Of a stretch of 64,000 bases of DNA, positions 9,239-43,701 are shown one piece after another; the stretch's first letter is position 1, and every line of letters starts with the position of its first letter. This DNA is from Natronococcus sp. CG52 (GTDB lineage Archaea; Halobacteriota; Halobacteria; Halobacteriales; Natrialbaceae), in the NCBI RefSeq assembly GCF_023913515.1, contig NZ_CP099391.1, positions 2,170,001 through 2,234,000 of the forward strand, read 5' to 3'. A program made the position numbers and the translations under genes. The notes under the pieces are model-generated. The model was not told where the DNA came from and ran no database searches. It saw only the letters and a program-made list of their open reading frames with translations.

Positions 9239-9370
9239 CTATAGTAGCCGCTGACAGTCAGTGCACACCCGATCGCACGACGGGTGCGCGGTTCGGAGCG
9301 AGCGAAGCGAGCGAGAACCGCGCACAGTGCGATCGGTGTGGAAACCGTTCCAGTTGGTAGTAGAGCTATA
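9239..9370 (+). repeat. interspersed palindromic repeat, long form (copy 3)
   Basis: The copy starts CTATAGTAGCCGCTGACAGT and contains the GGTTCGGAGCGAGCGAAGCG insert and its partner GAGAACCGCG, so the centre is itself an inverted repeat. Its right end (CAGTTGGTAGTAGAG) is slightly altered compared with CAGTTGGTACTATAG of other copies. Confidence 0.8.
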
Positions 9371-16349: not shown

Positions 16350-16502
16350 GAGTCGTCGAGTCGGGAGCGGGTGGATAGTGGCTGGTGGGTGACGGTCGAA
16401 CGACGCGGCAGGGTGTCGATCGGGTGGGTGCCTGATTTGGGGATTCCTGCCATCCATACCTAACAGGATATCTGTAAAATCATTCATTCCAAACTGTGTT
16501 GG
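16350..16502 (+). repeat. direct repeat bordering the origin module, left copy
   Basis: A 41-base core (16387-16427), beginning GGGTGACGGTCGAACGACGC, is identical to 19338-19378. Weaker similarity continues on both sides, ending with TTCATTCCAAACTGTGTTGG at 16483-16502 (right copy: TTCATTCCAAATTATGTTGG). Short frames through it are not conserved between copies, so it is probably not coding. The two copies lie about 2.95 kb apart with orc1 and the origin between them. Confidence 0.8.
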
Positions 16503-16649: not shown

Positions 16650-17852
16650 TCAGACCTCGGTTTCGGCGCAGGCGGCCAGGATCACGTCGGGGTCGTCGAG
16701 GAGCCGATTCTCCATGTAGTTGCCCTTCCCCTTGCCGGCCCACTTGCGCTCCTGATCGATGATCGAGAGGAACTCGAGTTCGGAGAGTATATCGCGGACC
16801 CGGCGGAGTTTGAGCGGGTCGGAGCTCTCTTGGGCGCAGACGCGCTGGTAGACGTCGTAGATCCCGGTGGTGCGGACGGCGGCGTCGTTGTCGTCCGCCT
16901 GCTGGACCAGAAACGCCATCGCCTCGAGTACCATCTTCGCGTGACTCGGCGACTTCGAGATGAGTTCCGCGAGCCGGCTGGTCTCCTCGCGCTCGTGTGC
17001 CTGGTCGACGCAGTCTTCGGTCACGGCGTCCATCCCCTCCTCTTCGGCGATCTCGCCGGCGAATCGGAGGATGTCGATCGCCTTACGAGCGTCGCCGTGC
17101 TCGCGCGCCGAGAGCGCCGCCACCCGCGGGATGACGCTCTCCGAAAGGACGTCCTCGTGGAAGGCATCCGAGCGAGAGGTGAGGATTTCCTGGATCTGCG
17201 TGGCGTCGTAGGGAGCGAACACGTACTCGCGTTCGCAGAGACTCGATTTGACGCGCTCGTTCAGCGACTCCTTGTACCGAACCTTGTTGCTGATTCCGAT
17301 GACGCCGGCCTTGCTCGACTCGAGTTTGCCCGACTCGACGGCTCGCGAGAACTGCATCAGAACGTCGTCGTTTTCGATCTTGTCCACTTCGTCGAGGATG
17401 ACGAGGACGACGTCGTACAACGCGTCGGAGATCTGCCAGAGACGCCGGTAGTACTCGGCCGTACTCAACCCCGAGTGTGGAATCGATACGTTGGTCCGGT
17501 CGCGATCGTTGAGTTGGTGGGCGATCGACTGAACGACCTGCGTCTCCGTCGAGTCCTGGAGGCAGTCGATGTAGGTGACACCGATCGTGATGTCGTTCTG
17601 GTCGGCGCGGTCGACCGCCTGGTTGGTGATAAACTTCGCACAGAGCGATTTTCCGGTACCGGTCTTCCCGTAGACGAGCACGTTGTTCGGCGTGTTCCCG
17701 GTGGTCGCCGGTTTGATCGCCGTGGCGAGATTCTCGAGTTCCGCCTGCCGGCCGATGATTCGATCACCGTCCGGCAGATGTGAGACCTGCAAGAGTTCCT
17801 TGTTCCGGAAGATCGCCGTTTCGCTCCCGAAATAATCAACCGAGTCGGACAT
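16650..17852 (-). CDS. orc1: Orc1/Cdc6-type replication initiator
   Basis: The product has 400 residues, the normal length. GRQAELENLATAI leads into the Walker A motif GKTGTGKS (residues 62-69); VVLVILDEVDKI is Walker B and VIGISNK is sensor 1. GDARKAIDILRFAGEIAEEE is the sensor-2/lid region of AAA+ initiators. The C-terminal third (from about 310) is the winged-helix origin-binding domain, including GIYDVYQRVC and LSELEFLSIIDQ. In archaea this protein binds origin recognition boxes and loads MCM helicase. It starts 45 bases from the first of a series of repeated boxes, so it probably serves this adjacent origin. Halobacteria carry several orc genes; which number this is cannot be told. Confidence 0.96.
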   Translation of the reverse strand: MSDSVDYFGSETAIFRNKELLQVSHLPDGDRIIGRQAELENLATAIKPATTGNTPNNVLVYGKTGTGKSLCAKFITNQAVDRADQNDITIGVTYIDCLQDSTETQVVQSIAHQLNDRDRTNVSIPHSGLSTAEYYRRLWQISDALYDVVLVILDEVDKIENDDVLMQFSRAVESGKLESSKAGVIGISNKVRYKESLNERVKSSLCEREYVFAPYDATQIQEILTSRSDAFHEDVLSESVIPRVAALSAREHGDARKAIDILRFAGEIAEEEGMDAVTEDCVDQAHEREETSRLAELISKSPSHAKMVLEAMAFLVQQADDNDAAVRTTGIYDVYQRVCAQESSDPLKLRRVRDILSELEFLSIIDQERKWAGKGKGNYMENRLLDDPDVILAACAETEV

Positions 17853-17956
17853 TGCGTTGGCCGATCATTCCGCGGTACGATCTTAAAACGTTCGAACCGT
17901 GTTTCCGCTGTAAGAATTCGTGTCCGAGCGTCTCAGGCTCTCTCTCCCGTATAATA

Positions 17957-18194
17957 CACCCCGCGTTGCCGCTGTATAGTGTGAGAGAGGACCCCTCAGT
18001 TCCGCTGTATCTCTGGAGCAGAGACCCCGGAGTGCCGCTGTATGGAACGGACGGTTTCGGTCAACCGTACTCTCGAGACACCTCACTTCCGCTGTATAGG
18101 GTCGAATTCCAGGTTCTGAGAGAGTGTACCACGGTAATCCCACCCCGGAATGCCGCTGTATCGGTCGCACACACACCCCGCGTTGCCGCTGTAT
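17957..18194 (+). repeat. origin recognition box cluster, six same-direction copies
   Basis: Copies lie at 17957-17977, 17991-18010, 18023-18043, 18079-18097, 18141-18161 and 18174-18194. The consensus is roughly CACCCCGCGTTGCCGCTGTAT, with the last ten bases most conserved. The 17957 and 18174 copies are identical over 21 bases. Spacing is 32-62 bases from start to start. They lie just upstream of orc1. Confidence 0.88.
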
Positions 18195-18369
18195 GGCTCC
18201 GGTGATGGTCTCGAGTCGAACGGGAGGTGTAGACCGAGGGGTTGCACAATTATCGGCAGGCAGCGTACGGAAGAGCGGGCCAACGCTGAACGAGAGTGAG
18301 TGAGCACGCTCCTCCAGAGGGGTTTGAATTCACCTCGACTGGAAGAGCCGCGTTCGAGTCCGCTCGAAC

Positions 18370-18435
18370 ACATCTTTGTTCGAGATACTTAATGAGCTTT
18401 TACAAATCAGGTGTATTTATAAGTAACTATTACTC
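18370..18435. other. AT-rich candidate duplex-unwinding element
   Basis: This run, including GATACTTAATGAGCTTTTAC and GTGTATTTATAAGTAACTAT, is far AT-richer than its surroundings and lies between origin boxes of opposite orientation. Confidence 0.6.
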
Positions 18436-18628
18436 CGCGGTCTTACTACCCCGTCCGACCACGTCCGAAATCACGTGCCTACTGCTACACGTACTTGCCG
18501 TTCGACAGTCGCTCCGTCGGTCGAACCGCTGCTTCCGCCCCTAAACACTCAGATATCGGGTTTAGTTCCGGATGGGAGACAATCGAGTCGACGCGAGTCC
18601 CGCTCGGCGGACCCCACTTCCCCTTCGT

Positions 18629-18649
18629 ATACAGCGGCAACGCGGGGTG
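18629..18649 (-). repeat. origin recognition box, inverted copy
   Basis: This is an exact reverse complement of the 21-base box at 18174-18194 (reads ATACAGCGGCAACGCGGGGT and then G on the plus strand). It faces the left cluster across the AT-rich stretch. Confidence 0.88.
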
Positions 18650-18699
18650 TGTGCCACGGGTTTGCTAGAGGTGTTACCGAATCTGCCGGTCTGGTGCCC

Positions 18700-18821
18700 C
18701 TATAGTACCAACTGAAACGATTTACACCCGATCGCACGACAGGTGCGCGGTTCGGAGCAAAGCAAGCGAGAACCGCGGACAGTGCGATCGGGTGTGCATT
18801 GACTTTCAGCGGCTACTATAG
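18700..18821 (-). repeat. interspersed palindromic repeat, long form (copy 5)
   Basis: The copy reads in reverse: CTATAGTACCAACTGAAACG at the left and CTTTCAGCGGCTACTATAG at the right, with the central insert GGTTCGGAGCAAAGCAAGCG. It lies between the two inverted origin boxes. Both ends are CTATAG, in inverted orientation. Confidence 0.82.
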
Positions 18822-18866
18822 AATCAGGAAGCGGCTCCGAACGGATTGGGGTCAACTGCGGTCGTC

Positions 18867-19085
18867 TCACGGAACTGCGGGCAATTCCTCGAGGCAGTGC
18901 CGACAGTACGTGTAGAACTGTTCGTTCTTCGTACCGCACTTTCTGCACGTGACTGGTTGGTCGATTGAATCACGCTGGGTAGCCATTACCGACGGTAGCA
19001 AATCCAGCCACATACCCCTCGGGCATACGACTGCAAGGATGCTGAATATGCCCATTATAAGCGCCCATTCGACAGTTTTCCTCAC
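18867..19085 (-). CDS. small membrane-anchored zinc-ribbon protein
   Basis: The product has 72 residues. The N-terminal half is hydrophobic (VEWALIMGIFSILAVVCPRG, then MWLDLLPSVMA) and probably spans the membrane once. The C-terminal half holds CRKCGTKNEQFYTYCRHC, two CxxC pairs 11 residues apart, a classic zinc ribbon of the zinc_ribbon_2 kind. The gene lies between the two inverted origin boxes; nothing shows a link with replication. The function is unknown. Confidence 0.65.
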   Translation of the reverse strand: MRKTVEWALIMGIFSILAVVCPRGMWLDLLPSVMATQRDSIDQPVTCRKCGTKNEQFYTYCRHCLEELPAVP

Positions 19086-19172
19086 ACTCTTGATTTCCCG
19101 GCTTGATTCGGCGATATCCTCAACGAGAGAGCGATATCCTCAACGATACCGCGGTAACGCACACTGGGACCA

Positions 19173-19193
19173 ATACAGCGGCAACGCGGGGTG
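19173..19193 (-). repeat. origin recognition box, second inverted copy
   Basis: The 21 bases are the same as in the inverted box at 18629-18649. A degenerate relative (ATACCGCGGTAACGC) lies just before it at about 19146-19160. Confidence 0.82.
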
Positions 19194-24146: not shown

Positions 24147-24164
24147 CTCGCGGATCGGTACCCT

Positions 24165-24291
24165 CTATAGTAGCCGCTGAAAGTCAGTGCACACCCGATC
24201 GCACGACGGGAGCGCGGGTCGGAGCGAGCGAAGCAAGCGAGAACCGCGGACAGTGCGATCGGCGTGGAAACCGTTCCAGTTGGTACTATAG
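24165..24291 (+). repeat. interspersed palindromic repeat, long form (copy 6)
   Basis: This is the best-preserved copy: CTATAGTAGCCGCTGAAAGT at the left and CAGTTGGTACTATAG at the right. The CACACCCGATCGCAC and GTGCGATCGGCGTG arms and the GGTCGGAGCGAGCGAAGCAA centre are all present. Confidence 0.85.
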
Positions 24292-43065: not shown

Positions 43066-43417
43066 TGGGTTTCCGCGCATGCGTGCAGTCTGGCGACGCT
43101 CCTGGTCACTGGTTATTCACTCGCCGGTGTGACCGCCACGTTACAGTTACGCTGACTATCAAAGTTTTACCGAATTCGGGCCGGTAAGCGTCCTTCCTGT
43201 ACCCACCGCTTCGGGTGCCGATCCTCTCAAATACGGAGGGTTTCGATGGAGCCTGCAAACCGTATTTTTCAGCTGCAGTACTCTCTGCGCGCTGCATCCA
43301 CCTTCTCTATTCAGCGCGCCGTTTTTAGCAGAGACTGGGTGGATTACGATCCGCAGCGTTACATCGTTCACCCGCACTGAACGGCAGGGTCTCACCCTCG
43401 GCTACGTCTCGAGGACC
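43066..43417. other. intergenic region
   Basis: About 350 bases lie between the small DUF1059-like gene and the palindromic repeat at 43418. Frames here contain stops in all phases or are Arg/Ser-rich. I see no gene. Confidence 0.5.
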
Positions 43418-43544
43418 CGATAGCAGCCACTGAAAGTCGGTGCACATCCGATCGCACGACGGGAGCGCGGTTCGGAGCGAGCCAAGCAAGCGAGAACCGC
43501 GGACAGTGCGATCGGCGTGGAAACCGTTTCAGTTGGTACTATAG
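43418..43544 (+). repeat. interspersed palindromic repeat, long form (copy 7)
   Basis: The copy has CGATAGCAGCCACTGAAAGT at the left and CAGTTGGTACTATAG at the right. The central GGTTCGGAGCGAGCCAAGCA insert and the GTGCGATCGGCGTGG arm are present. The left end is slightly degenerate compared with copy 6. Confidence 0.8.
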
Positions 43545-43701
43545 CAGCACCTCCCGAACAGGTACGGGAGTCACGACGACGACACCGCCAGCGAGGGGAG
43601 AAAGGGACCGAACACGTCTCGAGGCGAAACCGATTACCTTCTCGGGCCGATAGCTCGAGCAACGACAACCGGTCGCCAACCGCGCTCGACACTGATCACA
43701 C

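Follow-up and report, generated by a model that had tools for sequence, protein, structure and literature searches.

A predicted orc1-adjacent replication origin with a family-specific recognition box in Natronococcus sp. CG52

We propose, with a probability of about 0.87, that the locus described here is a haloarchaeal orc1/cdc6-adjacent replication origin of one Natrialbaceae Orc1 family, as predicted from its gene and repeat content. Judged by its letters, the repeated box of this putative origin is the canonical haloarchaeal origin recognition box (ORB) in a family-specific form, with an altered winged-helix half.

Results

An Orc1 gene, its boxes and an AT-rich core

The window, i.e. the whole 64,000-nucleotide stretch of DNA that was analysed (contig NZ_CP099391.1, positions 2,170,001 to 2,234,000), contains an orc1/cdc6 initiator gene on the minus strand (16650-17852). 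The encoded protein of 400 aa is composed of an AAA+ ATPase domain with Walker A (GKTGTGKS) and Walker B (VILDEVD) motifs, a lid and a C-terminal winged helix. It matched profile TIGR02928 (8e-125), exceeded the Pfam cut-offs for Cdc6_lid and Cdc6_C, and matched the structures 2qby_A (7e-60) and 2v1u_A (2e-57). As is characteristic of haloarchaeal orc/cdc6-adjacent origins, the gene is complete, encodes both AAA+ and winged-helix domains and directly adjoins the boxes. The genome encodes about a dozen Orc1/Cdc6 genes.

The boxes are located in the intergenic region that runs from orc1 to about 19.2 kb and, because orc1 lies on the minus strand, they stand upstream of the gene, as the first-pass annotation had stated. 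Each box has 21 bases, contains a 20-bp ORB frame and follows the pattern ACCCC-N4-T-N-CCGCTGTAT. Six of them form a direct array on the plus strand (17957-18194): box 1 (17957-17977, CACCCCGCGTTGCCGCTGTAT), box 2 (17990-18010, GACCCCTCAGTTCCGCTGTAT), box 3 (18023-18043, GACCCCGGAGTGCCGCTGTAT), box 4 (18077-18097, GACACCTCACTTCCGCTGTAT, with one mismatch), box 5 (18141-18161, CACCCCGGAATGCCGCTGTAT) and box 6 (18174-18194), which has the same letters as box 1. The box-to-box spacing is 33/33/54/64/33 bp, a grammar that is kept in relatives. Two inverted boxes are present on the minus strand, box 7 at 18629-18649 and box 8 at 19173-19193. That these six same-direction and two inverted copies, noted in the first-pass annotation, are real is evident from a comparison with dinucleotide shuffles: the 1.5-kb intergenic region contains eight copies with at most one mismatch, and each of 300 shuffles contained none. 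When up to three mismatches were allowed, the whole window contained 10 matches versus 1.03 expected. In the 4.74-Mb genome exact matches were confined to this cluster, and the sole other copy with at most one mismatch was an isolated site at C1:2964188; the genome-wide search that had been suggested earlier hence did not find copies scattered away from orc1. A degenerate box (GAACCGTGTTTCCGCTGTAA, 17895-17914, plus strand, four mismatches) precedes the start codon of orc1 by 43 bp.

The AT-rich stretch that had been claimed to precede the inverted copies was also recovered. The 60-bp segment lowest in G+C (27%, at about 18372-18431) separates the array from the first inverted box and constitutes a candidate duplex-unwinding element. 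The same layout was observed in relatives: in all 40 family loci the plus-strand boxes form an array that a gap separates from an inverted box, the CCGCTGTAT ends of array and inverted boxes point toward the gap, and the AT-rich minimum falls between array and inverted box in 38 of the 40. ORBs inverted around an AT-rich element are another characteristic of haloarchaeal orc/cdc6-adjacent origins. Most of these loci contain a weak box (one to three mismatches) 43 bp above the orc1 start. This weak box opens a triplet near orc1, whose second and third boxes follow after 63-64 bp and a further 32-33 bp, and a second triplet of this kind closes the array at its AT-rich side. In the window the two triplets are formed by the degenerate box with boxes 1 and 2, at 17895/17958/17991, and by boxes 4, 5 and 6, at 18078/18142/18175, box 4 opening this distal 64/33-bp triplet. 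Clear conservation is confined to the spacings of 32/33 and 63/64 bp; helical phasing calculated over all distinct spacings was not convincing, with a Rayleigh R of 0.18 or less.

The outer part of the region is less constant. Apart from the window, just its two closest relatives among the 40 loci have a second inverted box. In the window the two are separated by an inserted MITE-like element (18700-18821, inverted repeat I13), which is missing from the same place in N. pandeyae and in the relative G094 and lies outside the origin proper; further MITE-like copies of ~120 bp are found in the window at 9239-9365, 24157-24291 and 43416-43551, and many are present in sampled stretches of the chromosome. 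A 39-aa open reading frame on the minus strand (18867-18986) contains two CxxC pairs (MATQRDSIDQPVTCRKCGTKNEQFYTYCRHCLEELPAVP) and is 97% conserved in N. pandeyae; it was rejected as a part of the origin as it is present, among the named relatives, in N. pandeyae only. Just ahead of the outer inverted box there is a 20-bp tandem direct repeat (GCGATATCCTCAACGA, 19111-19150).

The box is a variant of the GGGGT-containing ORB

The first-pass annotation had held that the core of the box differs from the GGGGT-containing boxes of the main haloarchaeal origins. This was an error of orientation, since seven of the eight boxes contain ACCCC, which is GGGGT on the opposite strand (the remaining box has ACACC). 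Read on that strand the pattern is ATACAGCGGCAACGCGGGGT, which contradicts a class lacking GGGGT, and box CACCCCGCGTTGCCGCTGTAT becomes ATACAGCGGCAACGCGGGGTG. Among 328 boxes from 40 loci both ends were nearly invariant, ACCCC varying little more than CCGCTGTAT. No gaps are needed to align the box with the canonical 20-bp ORB located beside an orc1 gene on contig C2 of the same genome (ACACCGGATTTCCGGTGAAA), and it is in its last ten bases that it departs from the canonical TTTCCGGTGAAA half.

Several other Orc1 paralogs of this genome have boxes of their own that obey the same grammar. The paralog at 84862-85989 of contig C3 (L009) is flanked on both sides by its own box, CACCCCTCTATCGATGTGT, and further distinct boxes are found at L012, L014, L015 and L016. 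In addition, two loci of another family (L120 and L121, family f6) encode an Orc1 of 33-34% identity accompanied by boxes ACCCC-N4-TTCCGCTGTTT, near in sequence to the box studied; this resemblance possibly reflects convergence or an old shared core.

Boxes and Orc1 proteins form a graded series. Orc1 proteins that are 76-98% identical to the one studied are accompanied by boxes ending in CCGCTGTAT, and those that are 60-65% identical (Haladaptatus, Halorussus, Haloarcula, Halorubrum and Halobellus) by boxes ending in CCGCTGTAA. A Natrinema plasmid Orc1 (62% identical) has the box end CCGATGTAA. At 54-58% identity the canonical CCGGTGAAA is found (own contig C2, pHTUR04, pHALXA01, Haloarcula, Halomarina, Halorientalis and Haloterrigena). 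The wing of the winged helix, KWAGKGKGNYMEN in the protein studied, also shifts along the series. Within wing residues 366-382, nine of 17 positions discriminate the CCGCTGTAT class from the CCGGTGAAA class, versus 74 of 400 overall, an enrichment (hypergeometric 0.001) that applies to one chosen region and to class-specific residues that are confounded with phylogeny. It has been reported that the initiator-specific motif contacts the G-track and that the winged helix contacts the dyad part of the box (PMC9738581; PMC3936714). A constant G-string half combined with a variable winged-helix half would fit these published Orc1-DNA contacts.

The box travels with one Orc1 subtype

An ortholog of the Orc1 studied (76-98% identical) was detected in 62 of 125 family genomes, and exact boxes were present in all 62. 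Of the 63 genomes without a detected ortholog just seven have any box, and a control pattern gave no matches in the 125 genomes. Five of the seven box-only genomes were analysed (G115 and G118 were left out), and at least four of the seven contain damaged copies of the same locus. In the Natronoglomus genome G007 (L034/L115) orc1 lacks residues about 167-231 and lies alongside an intact array, so this Orc1 is possibly an inactive initiator whose origin is still in place. Genome G067 retains a C-terminal remnant of orc1, and in G023 and G053 boxes are present, without orc1, next to the genes that flank orc1 in relatives. For the lone box of G064 no kinship to the locus was found. Loci L137, L138 and L139 are decayed copies in which few boxes remain, orc1 is either gone or represented by a C-terminal remnant, and the flanking genes are those of intact relatives. 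Outside the family the pattern was nearly absent: of ~290 genomes sampled from the class four had it, and in each of these four the stretch analysed also contains an Orc1-like gene (33-67% identity).

These data answer the question, raised in the first-pass annotation, whether the box always pairs with this Orc1 subtype: all ortholog-bearing genomes have it, and most exceptions that were analysed are broken copies of the locus. The accompanying suggestion of a separate specificity class holds insofar as the box pairs with one Orc1 subtype (62/62), but not as an unheralded class set apart, because Orc-family-specific ORBs were reported in 2012 (PMC3528665). The locus was rejected as a candidate for oriC1, the ancestral origin common to all haloarchaea, given that within its own family just 62 of 125 genomes have the ortholog, and that the box is nearly absent outside this family. 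Some relatives that have lost this orc1 are alive, and the gene is therefore dispensable at least in those.

Initiator and boxes occupy a non-ancestral site

In most relatives compared the module is housed in the hisH-trm1 interval. Here, a distance of 2.3 kb separates hisH from trm1, and neither orc1 nor a box was found between them. The module adjoins ubiA and sucCD instead, an arrangement that among the named loci is common to N. pandeyae only, and in the Orc1 tree this copy clusters with N. pandeyae and G094, outside the clade of the other Natronococcus copies. Synteny and tree together show that initiator and predicted origin moved or arrived as one module at a non-ancestral site. The module is probably a transferred copy; as to the route, which we infer, the simplest reading is that the old copy was lost and the present one then came from another lineage, and relocation of the module accompanied by fast change is the alternative. 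The locus illustrates how an origin and its initiator can appear jointly at a new place in the chromosome, with the old place standing empty.

The same orc1 is present near both ends of contig C1 of genome G000 (positions 16490 and 3952782), indicating that the contig ends overlap and that this chromosome is probably circular, with a length of about 3.94 Mb.

Discussion

The arrangement suggests how the putative origin could work. Orc1 encoded by the adjoining gene would bind the 20-bp boxes, and published Orc1-DNA structures suggest that the initiator-specific motif of its AAA+ domain would read the GGGGT end and its winged helix the CCGCTGTAT half. Bound to the array and to the inverted box, Orc1 would face the AT-rich core from two sides, and may open it and load MCM there. 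Through the degenerate box just ahead of orc1, the protein probably tunes its own gene. A more elaborate scheme is that the locus is a mobile replicator-initiator cassette whose box and Orc1 wing have co-changed stepwise from CCGGTGAAA via CCGCTGTAA to CCGCTGTAT, and in which one ordered Orc1 assembly on both triplets, the first covering the orc1 promoter and the second lying at the AT-rich side, restrains orc1 and opens the origin; we regard this scheme as speculative and rather unlikely.

Structure alone is no proof of firing, as is illustrated by two predicted H. hispanica origins that did not support plasmid replication according to PMC3528665. GC skew, determined over 99 sampled 20-kb stretches, has no sharp extremum at the site and is uninformative for or against firing. 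The origin might be dormant or dead, with other origins normally starting replication and Orc1 acting mainly at the orc1 promoter or in a backup role. The dozen or so Orc1/Cdc6 genes of the genome would allow for this, dormant predicted origins have been described in H. hispanica (PMC3528665) and, according to PMC4595724, in Haloferax mediterranei, and degraded copies of this very locus occur in relatives. However, the intact Orc1 and the preservation of array, spacing, AT-rich core and inverted box over 40 loci suggest selection for use, and dormancy thus appears doubtful to us, though a serious contender.

The array could alternatively be a cluster that serves autoregulation or titration of Orc1 and is not a start site. 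Many boxes are indeed located in the orc1 promoter region, one of them 43 bp from the start codon, and in H. hispanica oriC2D is a known case of clustered boxes that lack origin activity (PMC3936714). Yet oriC2D lies downstream of its cdc6 whereas the array studied lies upstream, and here an AT-rich core and an inverted box round off an ordinary origin layout, which makes this explanation improbable. That the box is a separate kind unrelated to the haloarchaeal GGGGT boxes is more improbable by far: the unlikeness of its last ten bases to the canonical half speaks for it, but the ACCCC/GGGGT end and the gap-free fit to the canonical frame do not, intermediate boxes connect it to the canonical one, and a similar ORB had already been published (PMC3528665). 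An orc1-adjacent origin with a family-specific ORB is the reading that we prefer.

A haloarchaeal cell may contain up to a dozen initiators, each of which has to find its own origin alone. As the Orc1/box pairs of the graded series differ by one to few bases, the Orc1 residues that set origin specificity are directly testable.

We found no published assay of this Orc1/box family in the literature, and a search with the box letters retrieved unrelated primers only. Natrinema J7 oriC4, which has eight ORBs and gave no transformants (PMC5350488), was considered as a member of this Orc1 family and rejected, because its primer maps to genome G054, which is box-free.

Among origins studied elsewhere, H. 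hispanica oriC2-cdc6E with its ORB-rich oriC2D resembles the locus in having many boxes near one cdc6. H. hispanica origins, oriC2-cdc6E included, have been demonstrated experimentally to depend on their own cdc6 (PMC3936714); the extra H. hispanica cluster is situated downstream of cdc6, and the cluster studied upstream, within the origin layout. Sulfolobus oriC1 (ORB2-DUE-ORB3) likewise has an AT-rich core between inverted ORBs, but the locus has far more boxes, a gap of roughly 300-850 bp versus about 130 bp, and the haloarchaeal G-string (PMC12141716). With the canonical haloarchaeal ORB (ACACCGGGTTTCCGGTGAAA type; own contig C2 orc1, pHTUR04) the box shares the 20-bp frame, polarity, G-string end and inverted arrangement, and differs in its winged-helix half (CCGCTGTAT and not CCGGTGAAA), the respective Orc1 proteins being just 54-58% identical.

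The closest parallels are found in the work of Wu et al. (2012), who surveyed 15 haloarchaeal genomes, predicted 102 orc/cdc6-adjacent origins in them, described G-string-containing ORBs that follow Orc families, proposed that orc/origin modules move between genomes, and reported that two of seven predicted H. hispanica origins failed to replicate a plasmid (PMC3528665). With the origins described there the locus shares an Orc1 gene that has G-string ORBs upstream of it, an AT-rich region flanked by inverted ORBs, and boxes tied to the Orc family. The main text of that paper does not name this Orc family or the box ACCCC-N4-T-N-CCGCTGTAT, although the family may already be among those of its supplement, and it contains a very similar core, TAACAGCGGAAACAGTGGGGT. 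In Haloquadratum walsbyi and Halorubrum lacusprofundi the ORB of Origin II (TAACAGCGGAAACAGTGGGGTGGGGGGGT) has the ACAGCGG half and the GGGGT half in the same order, and is distinguished by one extra base between the halves, a longer G-string, and TAAC in place of ATAC (PMC3528665). The locus thus adds to a known kind, the haloarchaeal orc-adjacent origins with family-specific ORBs described in 2012.
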